64,000 bases of DNA from Mesonia mobilis DSM 19841 (GTDB lineage: Bacteria > Bacteroidota > Bacteroidia > Flavobacteriales > Flavobacteriaceae): contig NZ_AUHX01000001.1 in the NCBI RefSeq assembly GCF_000423405.1, positions 62,001-126,000 on the forward strand, given 5' to 3'. Both the position numbers and the translations under genes were made by a program. The first letter of the stretch is position 1. Every line of letters begins with the position of its first letter. Below the pieces are notes generated by a model that was not told the origin of the DNA, did no database searches, and saw only the letters and a program-made list of their open reading frames with translations. Shown in pieces: positions 47,152 through 53,790 of this stretch.

Positions 47152-47601
47152 ATGAAAAAACTACTTTATATCTCACTTACCACTATATTATTGGTAGCTT
47201 GTAAAAACGAAAAAACATCAAATAACGATACAGCTCCAGAAGCATCAAAAGTTGAAACAAAAAAAACGCCGCTTCAAGAAAGTATGGCTAGAGGGAAATC
47301 TGTCTACAGCAAAAATTGTGCGCAATGTCACTTAGCGACTGGTAACGGAATCCCAAACTCATATCCGCCGCTTCGAAAATCAGATTGGTTCACTAAGAAA
47401 CGGGAAGAAAGTATTCACGCAGTTAAATACGGATTAAGCGGAGAAATTATCGTAAATGGTAAAACCTACGACAATGTAATGACGCCAATGGGATTATCTG
47501 ACCAAGAAGTTGCCGATGTGTTAAATTACGCGATGAACATGTGGGGCAACAAACAAGAAAAAATGGTATCTTCGGAAGAAGTTTCTCAAGTAGAAAAATA
47601 A
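47152..47601 (+). CDS. Cytochrome c lipoprotein
   Basis: A 149-residue lipoprotein (lipobox LLVAC, Cys17) with one class I cytochrome c domain. The haem attachment motif is NCAQCH (Cys56, Cys59, His60) and the likely axial Met113 lies in VMTPMGLSDQEV. It is probably anchored in the outer leaflet of the inner membrane or in the outer membrane and carries electrons. It is the first gene before the Crp/Fnr regulator (11 nt gap) and the sulfur-handling genes, so it may accept electrons from sulfur compound oxidation, though no sulfite dehydrogenase is encoded here. No clear GTAAC operator was found upstream. Confidence 0.9.
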   Translation: MKKLLYISLTTILLVACKNEKTSNNDTAPEASKVETKKTPLQESMARGKSVYSKNCAQCHLATGNGIPNSYPPLRKSDWFTKKREESIHAVKYGLSGEIIVNGKTYDNVMTPMGLSDQEVADVLNYAMNMWGNKQEKMVSSEEVSQVEK

Positions 47602-47612
47602 ACTCTTTGTGT

Positions 47613-48248
47613 ATGCATTCAGTAGAGCTTCAGCAAAATTACGGCGGTTTATTTCAGCCTGAATTAGTAGAAGAGATCAATAAAGTTGCCATTTTTAAAG
47701 AAGTTAAAGCCGGTGAAGAACTCATTAATGTTGGCGATTACATCAGATCGATGCCGTTAATTTTAACCGGAGCGATTAAGATTCTACGAGAAGATGAAAA
47801 CGGTGACGAGCTCTTACTGTACTTCTTAGAAAAAGGCGATACCTGTGCAATGACCTTAGCTTGCTGTATTGGCAGTAAAAAAAGTGAAATTAAAGCAGTA
47901 GCAGAAACCAATGCCACTTTATTGATGATTCCTGTTCAAAAAATGGAAGAATGGTCTTCTAAATTCAAAAGCTGGCGAAATTTTGTGTTCGATAGTTACC
48001 ATCATCGATTAATGGAAGTTCTTCAATCTATCGATAACATTGCTTTTTCAAAATTAGACGATCGACTTATAAAATACCTTCAGCATAAAAAAAAGCTTTT
48101 TAAAAGTAATCTTATAGAAATTACGCATCAAGAAATTGCACGCGATCTCAATTCATCGCGCGTAGTGATCTCTCGTTTATTAAAAAAATTAGAAAACCAG
48201 CACGCTATCGAATTACATCGAAATTCAATTAAATTATTAGCTGTGTAA
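47613..48248 (+). CDS. Crp/Fnr-family transcriptional regulator of the sulfur island
   Basis: A 211-residue regulator: cyclic-nucleotide-binding-like domain (about 25-125; AGEELINVGDYIRSMPLILT, LLLYFLEKGDTCAMTLACC) and a C-terminal helix-turn-helix (LIEITHQEIARDLNSSRVVI, SRLLKKLE). In the recognition helix SSRVVISRLLKKLE the Ser-Arg of FNR is kept but the Glu that reads TTGAT in FNR is Val, fitting a different half-site. A longer frame from 47541 overlaps the cytochrome gene; ATG 47613 gives the usual family length. Its likely target is GTAAC-N4-GTTAC, present at two promoters of the following genes, and a weaker site overlaps its own stop codon. Confidence 0.92.
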   Translation: MHSVELQQNYGGLFQPELVEEINKVAIFKEVKAGEELINVGDYIRSMPLILTGAIKILREDENGDELLLYFLEKGDTCAMTLACCIGSKKSEIKAVAETNATLLMIPVQKMEEWSSKFKSWRNFVFDSYHHRLMEVLQSIDNIAFSKLDDRLIKYLQHKKKLFKSNLIEITHQEIARDLNSSRVVISRLLKKLENQHAIELHRNSIKLLAV

Positions 48249-48288
48249 CTTTTATCACGCTAGCTAACTTTTCTTTTATCTAGTTTTG
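48245..48288 (+). promoter_or_regulatory. Degenerate Crp/Fnr site and -7 box of the TauE/SafE gene
   Basis: GTAAC-TTTT-ATCAC at 48245-48258, overlapping the regulator's stop codon, and TAGTTTTG (TAnnTTTG) at 48281-48288. The site centre (48251.5) is 36.5 nt from the last base of the -7 box, the same spacing as at the other two operators. One half-site is imperfect. Confidence 0.55.
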
Positions 48289-48312
48289 TTTACAGAATTG
48301 AAAAAATAGCAA

Positions 48313-49119
48313 ATGTTAATTAGCATTTTAGGGTTTATAGCAGCATTAATTATCGGGATCGTTTTAGGGCTTACCGGCGGCGGTGGTTCCATTTTAACTG
48401 TTCCGGTATTTGTATATTTATTAGGGATCGATCCGGTGTTGGCTACCGGTTATTCTTTATTTGTAGTCGGTATTTCCTCGATGTTCGGTGCCATTAAAAA
48501 CCTGCAAAAAGGTTTAGTAAGTTTTGGAACTTCGCTCATTTTTGCCATTCCGGCGGTATTTGCGGTATTTTCAACTAGAAAATTCATTATTCCCGCTATA
48601 CCTGAAGTCATTTTTCAAAATCAATCCATATTATTTACCAAAGACGTTGCTATTATGGTGTTTTTCGCCATATTAATGTTAGCCGCTTCTTTCTCGATGA
48701 TGTTAGATAAAAAGAAGAAAGTTATAGAAACCGGAACAGACAAACCCAAAACAACAAATTATTTCAGCCTGATTTTATTAGGCGTTTTTACCGGAATCGT
48801 CACTGGTTTAGTTGGCGCCGGTGGTGGTTTTATTATTGTCCCAATTTTAATATTTCTGGCAAAACTTCCTATTAAAAAAGCAGCAGCCACTTCTTTATTC
48901 ATCATTGCACTTAATTCGCTAATTGGCTTTTTAGGTGATGCTTTGCAAATCGAGATCGATTGGACTTTTCTGCTTTCTTTTTCAGCATTTGCTATCGTCG
49001 GAATTTTTATAGGGATTTACCTGAATAAATTTATCGATGGTGCTAAACTTAAAAAAGCTTTCGGTTGGTTGGTGTTAGTGATGGGAATCTATATTTTTTA
49101 TAAAGAAATGATGATGTAA
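48313..49119 (+). CDS. TauE/SafE-family sulfite/sulfonate exporter
   Basis: A 268-residue membrane protein with about eight helices and the repeated TauE/SafE signature GIVLGLTGGGGSILTVPVFV (near 16-35) and GIVTGLVGAGGGFIIVPILI (near 160-180). The family moves sulfite, sulfoacetate or other anions out of the cell. Its place after a Crp/Fnr regulator and before a persulfide dioxygenase-rhodanese gene suggests export of sulfite formed during sulfide detoxification. It has a TAnnTTTG box with a weak regulator site upstream and is followed one base later by the methyltransferase gene. Confidence 0.92.
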   Translation: MLISILGFIAALIIGIVLGLTGGGGSILTVPVFVYLLGIDPVLATGYSLFVVGISSMFGAIKNLQKGLVSFGTSLIFAIPAVFAVFSTRKFIIPAIPEVIFQNQSILFTKDVAIMVFFAILMLAASFSMMLDKKKKVIETGTDKPKTTNYFSLILLGVFTGIVTGLVGAGGGFIIVPILIFLAKLPIKKAAATSLFIIALNSLIGFLGDALQIEIDWTFLLSFSAFAIVGIFIGIYLNKFIDGAKLKKAFGWLVLVMGIYIFYKEMMM

Positions 49120-49120
49120 G

Positions 49121-49735
49121 ATGAAAGAATTTTGGAACGAAAAATTTAATACCAAAGAATATATCTACGGAAAATCTCCGAATGTCTATTTAGCTGAAAA
49201 GTTGAAAGAATTACCTTCCGGTAAAATTTTATTCGTTGCCGAAGGCGAGGGGAGAAACGCTGTTTTTGCGGCTAAAAATAATTGGCAAGTTGAAGCTTTC
49301 GATATTAGCAATATAGCAAAAGAAAAAGCACTTGAATATGCTGAAGATTCTAATGTAGGAATTAACTATTCCACACAAGATTTTCTTGAAATTCCTTATA
49401 AGGAAAATTCTTTTGATGCGATAGCCTTAATTTATGCTCACGTTGAAACTACCAAAAGAGCGTCTTATTTCAAAAAGATCGATCGACTTTTAAAAACTGG
49501 CGGATTTTTAATTGCTGAAGGTTTTGGTCAAGATCATCCCAATTATCAAAAGAAATATCCCAACATTGGTGGACCAAAAAACGCTGAGCTTTTATTTTCT
49601 GTGGAAGAATTTAAAGAGTCATTCATCAATTATGATTTCTTAGAACTTCAAGAAGTAGAAACCAGTCTCAATGAAGGTGAAAAGCACGTAGGCAAAGGTT
49701 CTGTAGTAAGAATGTTCGCCAAAAAGAAGCTTTGA
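49121..49735 (+). CDS. Class I SAM-dependent methyltransferase
   Basis: A 204-residue methyltransferase with the SAM-binding motif KILFVAEGEGRNAVFAAKNN (motif I, near 33-52), VEAFDIS (motif II) and FDAIALIYAHVETTKRASYF. The N-terminus FWNEKFNTKEYIYGKSPNVY resembles the TehB/thiopurine methyltransferase-like group that methylates thiols, selenium or tellurium compounds. It starts one base after the TauE/SafE stop, so both are translated from one mRNA. A role in methylating sulfur species is plausible from context but not shown by sequence. Confidence 0.88.
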   Translation: MKEFWNEKFNTKEYIYGKSPNVYLAEKLKELPSGKILFVAEGEGRNAVFAAKNNWQVEAFDISNIAKEKALEYAEDSNVGINYSTQDFLEIPYKENSFDAIALIYAHVETTKRASYFKKIDRLLKTGGFLIAEGFGQDHPNYQKKYPNIGGPKNAELLFSVEEFKESFINYDFLELQEVETSLNEGEKHVGKGSVVRMFAKKKL

Positions 49736-49767
49736 TTTTTAAGTTGAAATCACAAGAAATTTTCAAT

Positions 49768-49781
49768 GTAACACCGGTTAC
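49768..49781. promoter_or_regulatory. Crp/Fnr operator GTAAC-ACCG-GTTAC
   Basis: Perfect 5-bp inverted repeat with a 4-bp centre, the same geometry as FNR sites (TTGAT-N4-ATCAA). Its centre (49774.5) lies 36.5 nt upstream of the last base of the -7 box TATTTTTG at 49804-49811, which puts it near -42 from the expected transcription start, the class II activator position. Confidence 0.75.
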
Positions 49782-49803
49782 TTATAAAAGTGAAGATAAT
49801 GTG

Positions 49804-49811
49804 TATTTTTG
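49804..49811 (+). promoter_or_regulatory. -7 promoter element TATTTTTG of the desaturase/persulfide dioxygenase operon
   Basis: Exact TAnnTTTG match, 18 nt before the ATG at 49830. The -33 position reads TTA rather than TTG, fitting dependence on an activator bound at 49768-49781. Confidence 0.65.
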
Positions 49812-49829
49812 TTACCGATTGATAGCAAA

Positions 49830-50723
49830 ATGTTAGAGAAATATTTAAAAATAATAAGCGATTCGTTTACCGGTTATTTCAACTATTTAGTGAGTGAAAT
49901 AACCAATCCGTCTTGGACAAACTATTTCTACTGGCTCATTGGTTTATCGTTATTGGTTTGGGCGTTAGAAATATTTATTCCTTGGCGAAAAAATCAGCCT
50001 ATTTTTAGAAAAGGCTTTTGGTTAGATAGTTTTTATATTCTGTTTAATTTTTTTCTTTTTTCTTTAGTAGGTTACAATGCGATCTCGAATGTTGGGGTAG
50101 AATTATTTAACGATTTTCTATCGCTCTTCGGTATCAAAAATATAGTTGCGATCGAAGTGCAAAATTTTCCCGTTTGGGCGCAGTTGCTAATTATGTTCAT
50201 GGTGGCAGATTTTATTCAATGGAATGTTCATCGACAATTACACAAACAACCTTGGCTGTGGAAGTTTCATAAAGTACATCATAGCGTAAAACAAATGGGT
50301 TTTGCCGCGCAGTTTCGCTTTCATTTTATGGAAACTATTGTGTATAAAACTGTGCAATATGTTCCGTTGGCGATGATCGGTTTTGGTATCGAGCAATTTT
50401 TTGTCGTGCATATGTTCTCGGTATTTATAGGGCATTTAAATCACGCCAATTTAGGGTGGAGTTACGGTTGGTTAGGTTATATTCTCAACAACCCGAAAAT
50501 GCACATTTGGCATCATTCAAAAGAATTGCCAAAAGACCGACCTTACGGAATGAATTACGGATTAAGTTTAAGTATTTGGGATTATTTGTTCGGAACGGCT
50601 TATATTCCCAAAAACGGAAAAAATATAGAATTAGGCTTTGAAGGAGATGAAGATTTCCCGAAAAGTTTTCAAGAACAGTTGATGTATCCGTTTCAGCATC
50701 AACAAAAAACAACACAGAAGTAA
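49830..50723 (+). CDS. Sterol desaturase / fatty acid hydroxylase family protein
   Basis: A 297-residue membrane di-iron enzyme with about four hydrophobic segments and the eight-histidine pattern of the superfamily: HRQLH, HKVHHSVKQMG, HLNHANLGW and HIWHHSKELP. Members hydroxylate or desaturate lipids. Genes like this often lie in the sulfur island of flavobacteria, but its substrate there is unknown. A reading seven codons longer starts at a TTG that lies inside the -7 promoter box, so ATG 49830 is chosen. The persulfide dioxygenase gene follows after 18 nt, so both share the Crp/Fnr-controlled promoter. Confidence 0.88.
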   Translation: MLEKYLKIISDSFTGYFNYLVSEITNPSWTNYFYWLIGLSLLVWALEIFIPWRKNQPIFRKGFWLDSFYILFNFFLFSLVGYNAISNVGVELFNDFLSLFGIKNIVAIEVQNFPVWAQLLIMFMVADFIQWNVHRQLHKQPWLWKFHKVHHSVKQMGFAAQFRFHFMETIVYKTVQYVPLAMIGFGIEQFFVVHMFSVFIGHLNHANLGWSYGWLGYILNNPKMHIWHHSKELPKDRPYGMNYGLSLSIWDYLFGTAYIPKNGKNIELGFEGDEDFPKSFQEQLMYPFQHQQKTTQK

Positions 50724-50741
50724 AATATAAAATCTTTAGAG

Positions 50742-52076
50742 ATGAATATAAAACAATTTAACGATAAAGCTTTAGCGCATTACAGCTATGCGATCGTTTC
50801 CGAAGGAAAAATGGCAGTGGTAGATCCTGCAAGAAATCCGATGCCGTATTATCAATTTGCTGAAGAAAACAATGCTAAAATTGTAGCAGTTTTTGAAACA
50901 CATCCGCACGCAGATTTTATCAGTAGTCATTACCAAATTCATAAAGAAACCGGTGCAACGATTTATGTAAGTGAATTGTTAGGAGCCGATTATCCTCACC
51001 AAACTTTTGATGACGGCGATAGTTTTATGTTAGGAAGTGTAAAATTTTCTGCCATTAATTCTCCCGGGCATTCTCCAGATAGTATTACAGTTTTAGCTGA
51101 AGAAGGTAATGACAAAGCAATGTTTACCGGCGATACGTTGTTCATTGGGAATGTTGGTCGCCCAGATTTGCGTGAAAAAGCAGGAAATATGCAAGCAAAG
51201 CGCGAAGAATTAGCCAAACAAATGTACCATACGATCAAAGATAAATTCACGCATTTACCCGATGAAACCTTGGTTTATCCAGCACACGGAGCCGGATCGC
51301 TTTGTGGGAAAAATATGAGCGATGCTTCATCTTCAACATTAGGGAATGAGCGAATGGGTAATTGGGCGTTTAAAGAACAAACCGAAGAAGAGTTTGTAGA
51401 AGAGATCTTAAAAGATCAACCGATGATTCCGCATTATTTTGGTTTCGATGTAGATACCAATAAAAAAGGACCGGATAATTACTTAAAAAGTATTGGTGAA
51501 GTCCCTGTTTTACTAAATGTAAATGAAGTGGAATCAGGCGCGGTAATTGTCGATATTAGCGCTGAAGAAGAGTTTAAAGCAAATCATTTAAAGGGAAGTT
51601 TTAATATTCAAGGAATTCGTGAACCACAAAAATTAGAAACCTGGTTAGGAGCCATCGTCCAGCCGGAAGAAGCTTTTTATTTAGTAGTTCCTTCTGTAGA
51701 AATGATAGAGACTGCTTTAGCGAGAATGGCTAAAATCGGTTATGAAAAGCAATTAAAAGCAATAATTACTCTAGCCGGAGATTTAAGTTCTTCTGAAAAA
51801 GTAGATGTGGAAGAATTTAAAAATAATCAGGAAAATTACACCATCGTAGATATTAGAAACGAACCTGAGGTTCAAGAAAATAAACCGTTTAAAAGTTCAA
51901 TCAACATACCGTTACACGAATTGAGAGAGCGAGCAAACGAAGTTCCTACCGATAAACCAATCGTAGTGCATTGTGCTGCCGGTTACAGAAGTGCTGCCGG
52001 AAGCAGCATTTTAGATCGTGAGATAGATAAGGTGAGCGTTCTCGATCTAAGCGATGCTATTAAAGATTTTATGTAA
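50742..52076 (+). CDS. Persulfide dioxygenase-like MBL-fold protein fused to rhodanese domains
   Basis: A 444-residue protein combining a metallo-beta-lactamase fold (about 1-230) with two rhodanese domains (about 250-340 and 350-444). Metal ligands are His54 in ETHPHADF, His110 in SPGHS and Asp131 in FTGDTLF, the mono-iron set of ETHE1; the usual HxHxDH His is Phe59, which ETHE1-type enzymes do not need. The last rhodanese has the active Cys411 in VVHCAAGYRSAAG; the middle one has no such loop. It is similar in layout to staphylococcal CstB and should oxidise low-molecular-weight persulfides to sulfite or thiosulfate. A terminator follows. Confidence 0.9.
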   Translation: MNIKQFNDKALAHYSYAIVSEGKMAVVDPARNPMPYYQFAEENNAKIVAVFETHPHADFISSHYQIHKETGATIYVSELLGADYPHQTFDDGDSFMLGSVKFSAINSPGHSPDSITVLAEEGNDKAMFTGDTLFIGNVGRPDLREKAGNMQAKREELAKQMYHTIKDKFTHLPDETLVYPAHGAGSLCGKNMSDASSSTLGNERMGNWAFKEQTEEEFVEEILKDQPMIPHYFGFDVDTNKKGPDNYLKSIGEVPVLLNVNEVESGAVIVDISAEEEFKANHLKGSFNIQGIREPQKLETWLGAIVQPEEAFYLVVPSVEMIETALARMAKIGYEKQLKAIITLAGDLSSSEKVDVEEFKNNQENYTIVDIRNEPEVQENKPFKSSINIPLHELRERANEVPTDKPIVVHCAAGYRSAAGSSILDREIDKVSVLDLSDAIKDFM

Positions 52077-52109
52077 TCGAAAATTCAAATTTACCCTTTG
52101 TATAAAAAG

Positions 52110-52144
52110 AAAAAGCCAAGCAATTCAATTTTGCTTGGCTTTTT
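52110..52144 (+). terminator. Bidirectional terminator after the persulfide dioxygenase gene
   Basis: Arms AAAAAGCCAAGCAA (52110-52123) and TTGCTTGGCTTTTT (52131-52144), 7-nt loop, between convergent genes. Confidence 0.92.
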
Positions 52145-52165
52145 CGATATAAAGCAGGTTAAGCA

Positions 52166-52591
52166 TTATATATTTTTATTTTTCAAAAAGTTTCCGTCAA
52201 GATCAAAAACAAGTTCAGCGCCACTTTTCATTTCAATTTGGTGCCCATCGTCATCCATTTTCCAATCGGTTACATAATCGTCACCATATCTGTTTTCTAA
52301 AAATAATCTCATCTTTTCCGGGATAAGTGCTGAAGGTATTTTTTCTTCACCTGAAATTTCGGTGGCATTCCCATTTTCATTAAAATCGATTTTGGTTCCG
52401 TTTTTAAATTTTACCTGATAGCTCTCATCTCCAGAATTAGGATCTGCATCAATTTTTTCAACCTGATGTCCTGCATAATAGTCTTTAACGATCTTTTGCG
52501 CATTCATAGGTAGTTTATCAAAATTTTCTTGTGCCTGACCAACAAATATTGCTAGTAAGGTTACGACACCTAAAATTATCCATTTTCTCAT
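52166..52591 (-). CDS. Exported PepSY-like domain protein
   Basis: A 141-residue exported protein with a signal peptide (MRKWIILGVVTLLAIFVGQA). The mature part contains two half-repeats of the PepSY-like (BLIP-like) fold: VEKIDADPNSGDESYQVKFK with NGTKIDFNENGNATEISGEE, and MRLFLENRYGDDYVTDWKMD with GAELVFDLDGNFLKNK. Such proteins bind calcium or act as inhibitors in some families; function here is unknown. It interrupts the sulfur island on the opposite strand and is divergent from the first YeeE-type permease gene, so the regulator site at 52705 could act on both. Confidence 0.82.
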   Translation of the reverse strand: MRKWIILGVVTLLAIFVGQAQENFDKLPMNAQKIVKDYYAGHQVEKIDADPNSGDESYQVKFKNGTKIDFNENGNATEISGEEKIPSALIPEKMRLFLENRYGDDYVTDWKMDDDGHQIEMKSGAELVFDLDGNFLKNKNI

Positions 52592-52704
52592 AACGATTTA
52601 TTTTATTGGTTTCTTACAACTAAGATATCTATAGAATAATCTTCTCGTTATTAAGGTTTTGTGAATTTGAATAAGCTTAACAACTTTTACTAAAAAAGTA
52701 TTAA

Positions 52705-52718
52705 GTAACTTGAGTTAC
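52705..52718. promoter_or_regulatory. Crp/Fnr operator GTAAC-TTGA-GTTAC
   Basis: Perfect inverted repeat of the same type as 49768-49781. Its centre (52711.5) is 36.5 nt upstream of the last base of the -7-like box CATATTTG (52741-52748), identical to the spacing at the desaturase promoter. Confidence 0.75.
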
Positions 52719-52740
52719 AGATTTGTTCATACTAATCGAG

Positions 52741-52748
52741 CATATTTG
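52741..52748 (+). promoter_or_regulatory. -7-like element CATATTTG of the YeeE permease genes
   Basis: Matches TAnnTTTG except for the first base; 11 nt before the ATG at 52760. No -33 TTG is present, fitting an activator-dependent promoter. Confidence 0.5.
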
Positions 52749-52759
52749 TAAAAAATTTT

Positions 52760-53317
52760 ATGACTATGAATTGGATTTTAGAACCTTGGCCGTGGTATAT
52801 CGGCGGACCCGCAATCGCGATTTTTATGTTATCGCTCTTAATTATCGGGAAACAATTTGGAATGTCTTCTAACCTAAGATCGTTATGCTCAATTGGCGGT
52901 GGAGGCAAAGTGGCCGACTTTTTCAATTTCGATTGGAAAGCTCAACGATGGAATTTAACGATTATGATCGGTGCCGCAATTGGTGGTTTTATCGCCGCTA
53001 ATTACCTTTCAGATAATACAGTGCAAATCAATGAAAGTTTACTTCCGCAACTACAAGAATACGGAATCAACAGCGTAGGAGAAGCTTATTTACCCACAGA
53101 GATTTTTGCTTTAGAAAATCTAAACCTTAAAAACATACTCATTTTATTAGGTGGTGGTTTATTAGTTGGCTTTGGTGCACGTTATGCCGGTGGTTGTACT
53201 TCTGGTCACGGTATCTCGGGATTAAGTAATCTACAATTACCATCGTTAATAGCGATTGTCGGTTTCTTTATTGGTGGTTTAGTAATGGTACATTTATTTT
53301 ACCCGTTAATTTTTTAA
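52760..53317 (+). CDS. YeeE/YedE-family permease (thiosulfate/sulfur transport), first of a pair
   Basis: A 185-residue membrane protein with about four helices and the family signature ARYAGGCTSGHGISGLSNLQ containing the conserved Cys146; another cysteine, Cys43, lies in LRSLCSIGGGG. YeeE proteins take up thiosulfate by passing it between cysteines, and in Bacteroidota they come as two short subunits. A second ATG two codons in (52766) is also possible. The pair next to a persulfide dioxygenase-rhodanese suggests movement of a sulfur species across the membrane. Its promoter has a consensus Crp/Fnr operator. Confidence 0.9.
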   Translation: MTMNWILEPWPWYIGGPAIAIFMLSLLIIGKQFGMSSNLRSLCSIGGGGKVADFFNFDWKAQRWNLTIMIGAAIGGFIAANYLSDNTVQINESLLPQLQEYGINSVGEAYLPTEIFALENLNLKNILILLGGGLLVGFGARYAGGCTSGHGISGLSNLQLPSLIAIVGFFIGGLVMVHLFYPLIF

Positions 53318-53376: not shown

Positions 53377-53790
53377 ATGAAAACAATACTTTATTTATTT
53401 CTCGGAACGATTTTCGGGATCATTATGTACAAATCTGAAGCTGCTTCGTGGTTCAGAATTTATGAGATGTTCAACTTTGCTAGTTTCCATATGTATGGCA
53501 TTATGGGATCTGCCGTTGCTATCGGTATGATCGGTGTTCAATTTCTAAAGAAAAAAAATTACAAAGCTATCGATGGCTCAGAACTATCACTTCAACCCAA
53601 AGAAAAAGGGATTTCAAGATACCTTTTAGGCGGAATCATTTTTGGCTTAGGTTGGGGTTTAGCAGGCGCTTGTCCGGGACCAATGTATACATTAGCCGGA
53701 GTCGGCTATATTTCAATTTTAATTGTTATTGCCGGAGCTATTTTAGGTACTTTTCTTTACGGTTTACTTCGGAAGAAATTACCGCATTAA
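53377..53790 (+). CDS. DUF6691/YeeE-type permease, second of the pair
   Basis: A 137-residue membrane protein with about four helices (for example LYLFLGTIFGIIMYKS and GIMGSAVAIGMIGVQFL). It has the half-signature GLGWGLAGACPGPMYTLAGV with Cys99, matching the conserved cysteine of YeeE-type transporters. It probably pairs with the preceding YeeE-like subunit to make one transporter. The separation of 59 bp contains a REP-like palindrome. Its stop codon overlaps that of the convergent monooxygenase pseudogene. Confidence 0.88.
   Translation: MKTILYLFLGTIFGIIMYKSEAASWFRIYEMFNFASFHMYGIMGSAVAIGMIGVQFLKKKNYKAIDGSELSLQPKEKGISRYLLGGIIFGLGWGLAGACPGPMYTLAGVGYISILIVIAGAILGTFLYGLLRKKLPH

Follow-up and report, generated by a model that had tools for sequence, protein, structure and literature searches.

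A sulfur island in the flavobacterium Mesonia mobilis DSM 19841 encodes a Crp/Fnr-type regulator, and three promoters of the island carry perfect or degenerate copies of the palindrome GTAAC-N4-GTTAC. The window, the whole stretch of DNA that was analysed, comprises 64,000 nucleotides (nt) of contig NZ_AUHX01000001.1 (assembly GCF_000423405.1, positions 62,001 to 126,000, forward strand). The genes of the island follow each other in the order cytochrome c, regulator, TauE, methyltransferase, hydroxylase, dioxygenase, PepSY-like gene (opposite strand) and YeeE permease, the latter split into two genes (Table 1). We consider it a strong probability that the regulator controls a sulfur regulon from these sites by class II activation, an assessment that covers the regulon and its mode of activation and is kept apart from the signal.

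Table 1. Genes, palindromic sites and -7 boxes of the sulfur island (positions in the window).
Feature	Position	Strand	Remarks
Cytochrome c gene	47152..47601	+	separated from the regulator gene by 11 nt
Crp/Fnr regulator	47613..48248	+	211 amino acids; helix SSRVVISR; cysteines 78, 84 and 85 only
Weak site GTAACTTTTATCAC	48245-48258	+	GTAAC-TTTT-ATCAC; overlaps the stop codon of the regulator gene; orthologous to strong sites in relatives
-7 box TAGTTTTG	48281-48288	+	tauE promoter, paired with the 48245 site; predicted start near 48293
TauE/SafE sulfite exporter family	48313..49119	+	
SAM methyltransferase	49121..49735	+	1 nt behind tauE
Exact site GTAACACCGGTTAC	49768-49781	+	GTAAC-ACCG-GTTAC
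-7 box TATTTTTG	49804-49811	+	paired with the 49768 site; predicted start near 49816
Fatty acid hydroxylase superfamily protein	49830..50723	+	start is the ATG after the box
Metallo-beta-lactamase plus rhodanese protein	50742..52076	+	persulfide dioxygenase type
Exact site GTAACTTGAGTTAC	52705-52718	+	GTAAC-TTGA-GTTAC
-7 box CATATTTG	52741-52748	+	first T replaced by C; paired with the 52705 site; predicted start near 52753
YeeE/YedE sulfur transport protein	52760..53317	+	first half
DUF6691/YeeE	53377..53790	+	second half

The window holds two exact copies of the palindrome against a mean of 0.02 in shuffled sequences, and none of 100 shuffles reached two. In all three promoters the dyad centre lies 36.5 nt from the last base of the -7 box. 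A preliminary description of this DNA had listed both exact sites, a weaker third one and all three distances, and on recheck these coordinates proved correct. One spaced pattern fits all three sites; it was composed around them, which makes its mean of 0.02 in shuffled sequences partly circular. Allowing up to two mismatches, 28 matches were counted where 21.1 were expected, an unremarkable number that was reached in 8 of 100 shuffles. Because this count is ordinary, the weak site is not significant by its sequence. It is nevertheless most likely real and degenerate, with positional support from relatives, since orthologous tauE promoters have sites at the matching position and Mesonia aquimarina (L321) carries GTAAC-CTAG-ATTAC (one mismatch) over the equivalent stop codon, together with a box. 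No site was found before the cytochrome c gene in a search with up to two mismatches. Little weight attaches to the earlier remark that a -33 element is missing from all of the promoters, since no -33 motif at all was reported for Flavobacterium johnsoniae (PMC7366714).

The source genome contains six exact palindromes. Two of them are those of the island; the other four sit inside open frames for a DnaJ-like, an electron-transfer-flavoprotein-like, a ribosomal protein S5-like and one unnamed protein (read from the translations) and are taken as chance, so that the regulon of this genome is probably the sulfur island alone. The strict site-plus-box pattern (TANNTTT) recovered only the 49768 site, skipping the 52705 site because its box starts with C, and a scan with at most one mismatch in the palindrome gave 105 matches compared to 93 for the control. 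The remaining two Crp-type helix-turn-helix matches of the genome are without the Arg-Val helix of the island regulator. Contig C10 (L037, 658-1710) encodes a fusion of a response regulator with a Crp-type domain, with Glu and no Arg-Val in its helix; its neighbours are a histidine kinase-like and a universal-stress-like frame.

Homologues of the regulator (E <= 1e-30) were found in 167 of 199 family genomes (198 genera) and, at class level (E <= 1e-22), in 261 of 396 genomes. For the family, we analysed 101 regions (1.67 Mb) consisting of the source window and 100 regions hand-picked from the listed matches, with some genomes included twice; regulator identities in the fetched regions were about 48 to 70%. 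The exact palindrome occurred 194 times and was present in 86 of the 101 regions. Among 60 half-site orderings GTAAC ranked first with these 194 copies, the runner-up reaching 10 and the median being 1, and gaps between 0 and 11 other than 4 gave 0 to 4 copies each. Downstream occurrences of TA..TTTG ended at exactly 36.5 nt in 94 of 106 cases, and TA..TTT was found at the fixed spacing (+/-1, either strand) for 160 of the 194 sites. Where tauE directly follows the regulator gene (49 family loci), an exact site with box lies in between in 36 loci, or in 44 if one mismatch is allowed, and six control half-sites gave no exact match in 100 loci. The search of orthologous sulfur islands that had been proposed in advance was thus positive. 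These results also bear on the idea that the sites of the source window arose by chance: the in-frame location of four of the six genomic copies and the ordinary two-mismatch count would fit it, but the shuffles and the recurrence of orthologous positions and spacing across genera refute it as far as sequence can, and its probability is negligible.

A transcription start-site map of Flavobacterium psychrophilum, as described in its published account, places TAnnTTTG at -12 to -5 (PMC9723704). As the last base of the box is 36.5 nt away from the dyad, the sites would be centred at -41.5, which by analogy with these mapped starts corresponds to the class II geometry, i.e. an activator dyad fixed at about -41.5. 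The opposite mode of action, a repressor that is released by sulfide species like CstR, SqrR and BigR, is unlikely. The best-known reactive-sulfur regulators are described as repressors (PMC9774590), and polymerase might likewise be hindered by a site at -41.5; however, a spacing fixed to the base pair is what an activator in contact with polymerase would require, and NtcA, which uses the same site, is reported to activate from -41.5 and to repress when its sites lie downstream of the -35 box (PMC3898017). Judged from this arrangement, the regulator very probably activates its target promoters.

In the family regions, 171 box-linked sites were counted by strand, 164 of them with an open frame behind. 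The most frequent targets were persulfide dioxygenase-rhodanese proteins (45), TauE (34) and single rhodanese-like proteins (13), followed by outer membrane efflux proteins (10), proteins similar to sulfide:quinone oxidoreductase (SQR; 9), the regulator itself (9), Tll0287-domain proteins (6), small proteins without Pfam match (6), SulP (6), YeeE (5), AhpC/TSA peroxiredoxins (4), SorA-like sulfite dehydrogenases (3), thioredoxins (2) and YgaP-like membrane domains (2). Among ten other targets are a single cytochrome bd subunit I and the hydroxylase of the source window. For the target names, one representative of each cluster was scanned; SQR and SorA were matched below the NCBIfam cut-offs, and the single rhodanese-like proteins clustered with the dioxygenase-rhodanese proteins in BLAST and were read by eye. 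Going by these assignments, the recognisable targets are largely sulfur genes. The hydroxylase gene is located between the genes for TauE and the dioxygenase; its product is 75-77% identical in three relatives (L069, L107, L125). A second box-linked palindrome, ATGA-N6-TCAT, was noted 26 times in the 101 regions (e.g. L103, L086, L074, L082, L129), before genes that by translation are HemN-like, universal-stress-like, ribosome-hibernation-like and phosphofructokinase-like, and perhaps represents the regulon of another Crp/Fnr protein.

The recognition helix of the window regulator reads SSRVVISR at residues 181-188, with Val184 at the position of the Glu in CRP and FNR and with Ser187-Arg188 kept. 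This agrees with the preliminary description, in which Arg183, the counterpart of CRP Arg180, went unmentioned. Positions 182-188 are nearly invariant in 101 family regulators (S 99, R 101, V 100, V 100, I/V 67/34, S 101, R 101). At class level, 60 loci hand-picked from the listed matches comprised 38 with Val184 and 22 with Glu184; 26 exact GTAAC palindromes were found in the Val loci and none in the Glu loci. A genome-contig scan added 80 loci (68 Val, 12 Glu), and the 240 regulator loci correspond to 237 distinct proteins, which have Val (203), Glu (33) or Ile (1) at residue 184. Perfect GTNAC palindromes with box in the promoter directly after the regulator gene had A as third base in 76 and G in no case for Val-type regulators, compared to 7 G and 2 A for the Glu type; over whole loci the numbers were 264 A and 13 G for Val and again 7 G and 2 A for Glu.

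In a further selection, the best adjacent site with at most one mismatch was picked regardless of its third base. Sites were then obtained in 108 of 203 Val loci, with A in 192 of 216 half-sites (G 11, C 7, T 6), and in 16 of 33 Glu loci, with G in 24 of 32 half-sites and A in 8; control windows elsewhere in the loci yielded 32 of 1015 (Val) and 2 of 165 (Glu). Glu-type homologues are thus mostly paired with GTGAC-N4-GTCAC. In E. coli CRP, the first half-site G is described to be read by Arg180, and a G:C pair to be contacted by Glu181 together with Arg185 (PMC11253593). The chemistry agrees with the pairing of Val and A because this G:C pair is A:T in GTAAC. In the tree, for which every fifth family row was taken, the Glu proteins L239, L249 and L259, all with GTGAC, adjoin L251 (Val, GTAAC) within a larger Val-rich clade, and these forks are supported. 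The relatives with Val or Glu form a small natural experiment in which one residue of a CRP helix appears to set one base pair. In four Val-type loci, three of Maribacter and one of Aurantibacter, GTGAC-N4-GTCAC with box was observed before the dioxygenase or tauE-dioxygenase genes (L337 7506, L339 7504, L342 8207, L344 8427), their other promoters having GTAAC; Val184 may tolerate G at the third base.

Several observations weigh against the regulon and its proposed code. No site with at most one mismatch adjoins the regulator gene in 95 of 203 Val-type loci, 15 of the 101 family regions are without an exact site, and the palindrome alone shows no visible genome-wide enrichment, the per-genome counts being similar to the reversed control (judged by eye, unsummed). 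Two regulators, L267 and L281, carry Glu yet GTAAC, and 13 box-linked GTGAC sites occur in Val-type loci; a strict code of one residue for one base was rejected on these grounds. The covariation, a check foreseen from the start, is positive by counts with few independent switches: only one (supported branches) or two (all branches) Val/Glu switches have site data, so that a phylogenetic test lacks power and phylogeny alone proves little. Binding and activation by the regulator are predicted from sequence comparison.

The whole-genome scan for site plus box has to be read along with these points. It gave 470 matches in the 167 regulator-bearing genomes (41 for the reversed pattern), with at least one match in 147 of them, compared to 3 matches (one each in three genomes; reversed 5) in 32 regulator-free genomes. 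Together these 32 amount to 69 Mb, so they are on average small, and the island may be missing from them. This contrast supports the regulon and does not decide. It is also relevant to the explanation that another transcription factor reads GTAAC and that the regulator is present in the island incidentally. The Val-type loci without a near-perfect site beside the regulator gene and the single strict sites of the three regulator-free genomes are in line with such a factor, but site and box keep company with the regulator across genomes, the third base of the motif tracks residue 184 of this very protein, and nine sites lie before the gene of the regulator itself. We regard another factor as very unlikely; the regulator almost certainly binds the GTAAC-N4-GTTAC sites, as inferred from this co-occurrence and covariation.

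Cys78 is present in 238 of 238 sequences, Cys84 in 231 and Cys85 in 225. They are located at a predicted helix (residues 79-86) in a model with a mean pLDDT of 87.9, but of 66 for residues 81-90. Via the alignment with NtcA, this region corresponds to the phosphate-binding cassette of CRP. Such an arrangement suggests that the three cysteines could act as a thiol or persulfide sensor. They are not unique to the sulfur regulon because the structure 3dv8 from Eubacterium rectale has cysteines aligned to Cys78 and Cys84. Whether a sulfide-derived persulfide or polysulfide acting on Cys78/84/85 is the signal appears to us about evenly balanced. The regulon could be real with a different signal: the protein might respond to oxygen or the redox state, to heme, or to a small ligand that its cNMP-type domain binds, and we rate this as a possible, if less probable, explanation. 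The cNMP-type fold of the effector domain, the cytochrome c gene preceding the regulator, a site before a cytochrome bd gene in one relative and the cysteine pair of 3dv8, a protein outside this regulon, are compatible with it, while the conservation of just these three cysteines at the predicted helix and the predominance of sulfur genes among the recognisable targets speak against it.

For the preferred reading, we propose the following mechanism. The Crp/Fnr protein encoded at 47613-48248 would be a local activator of genes for sulfide and persulfide disposal. Its dimer would bind GTAAC-N4-GTTAC centred at -41.5, the class II position, in promoters that carry the -7 box of the Bacteroidota. 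G would be read by Arg183 and Arg188, and Val184, replacing the Glu of CRP and FNR, would go with A at the third base in an NtcA-like manner. The regulon of the source genome would be small, consisting of tauE and the methyltransferase gene, the hydroxylase and dioxygenase genes, and the yeeE pair; persulfide or polysulfide derived from sulfide, as the likeliest signal, would act on the cysteines. In a wider sense, there is perhaps an even chance that a widespread Crp/Fnr subfamily of the Bacteroidota senses persulfide through Cys78/84/85 in a converted cyclic-nucleotide pocket and, bound at -41.5, activates the oxidation and detoxification of sulfide; at one and the same promoter, its DNA code would have switched in nature between GTGAC with Glu and GTAAC with Val. 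New would be a widespread sulfur regulon of this phylum under a Crp/Fnr protein with only three cysteines, at the helix of the CRP cassette; the half-site was already known from NtcA. For a large phylum, the regulator is a candidate master regulator of the disposal of sulfide and persulfide; its motif, the positions of its promoters and a list of its targets are at hand, and its hosts are bacteria with an unusual primary sigma factor.

Among known proteins, the regulator belongs to the Crp/Fnr superfamily by its scores for PF00027 (42.9 bits, cut-off 27.5), PF13545 (35.6, cut-off 27) and PF00325 (25.3, cut-off 21), and the top Foldseek matches are Crp/Fnr structures. PADLOC gave no match. By titles and starts of abstracts among the papers listed from the open-licence literature, where a subscription paper could be missed, we found no report of a Crp/Fnr sulfur regulon in Bacteroidota. 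CstR, SqrR/BigR and FisR are described to control sulfide and persulfide genes through cysteines (PMC9774590); they are of the CsoR, ArsR and Fis/sigma-54 types and not Crp/Fnr proteins, and the first two repress. In the text available to us, the same review of reactive-sulfur regulators names CsoR-, ArsR- and Fis-type proteins, contains neither "Fnr" nor "Bacteroid-" and has "Crp" in its reference list only (PMC9774590). The best sequence match in the PDB is 3dv8 (9.6e-15), an entry titled putative regulator, which differs by its Arg-Glu helix (SHREVITR). FNR shares the 5-bp halves with a 4-bp gap and the Ser-Arg of the helix, in contrast to the CRP-like Arg183 of the regulator, which makes its helix as CRP-like as FNR-like; the FNR NCBIfam cut-off was missed (23.8 of 228 bits), and the N-terminal cysteine cluster of ligands is lacking. 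E. coli CRP has counterparts of both arginines (Arg180/Arg185), whereas the regulator has Val for Glu181 and cysteines at the cassette helix, and stays below the CRP equivalog cut-off (59.6 of 266 bits). The half-sites TGTGA of CRP and TGTAA(C) differ at the pair that Glu181 and Arg185 are described to contact (PMC11253593).

The closest parallel is NtcA, which combines the Crp/Fnr fold with an Arg-Val helix (STRVTVTR compared to SSRVVISR) and GTA-N8-TAC at about -41.5. Its consensus GTAN8TAC is reported to be centred near -41.5 in class II promoters, with several sites starting with GTAAC (PMC3898017). Of the interpretation given in the preliminary description, a regulon of Crp/Fnr type that includes genes for an exporter, a persulfide dioxygenase and a permease finds support in the comparisons, as do the class II geometry and Val for Glu as the telling change of the helix. 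The claim of a new half-site is overstated, since it is that of NtcA held to five bases: NtcA conserves GTA, while the Bacteroidota sites repeat all of GTAAC. NtcA is a global nitrogen regulator of cyanobacteria, that is, of another phylum with another regulon, and responds to 2-oxoglutarate, and the island regulator scores 47.3 bits where the NtcA equivalog model demands 244.95. GTA-N8-TAC at -41.5 together with the Arg-Val helix is a likeness to NtcA in the way of working, not membership.

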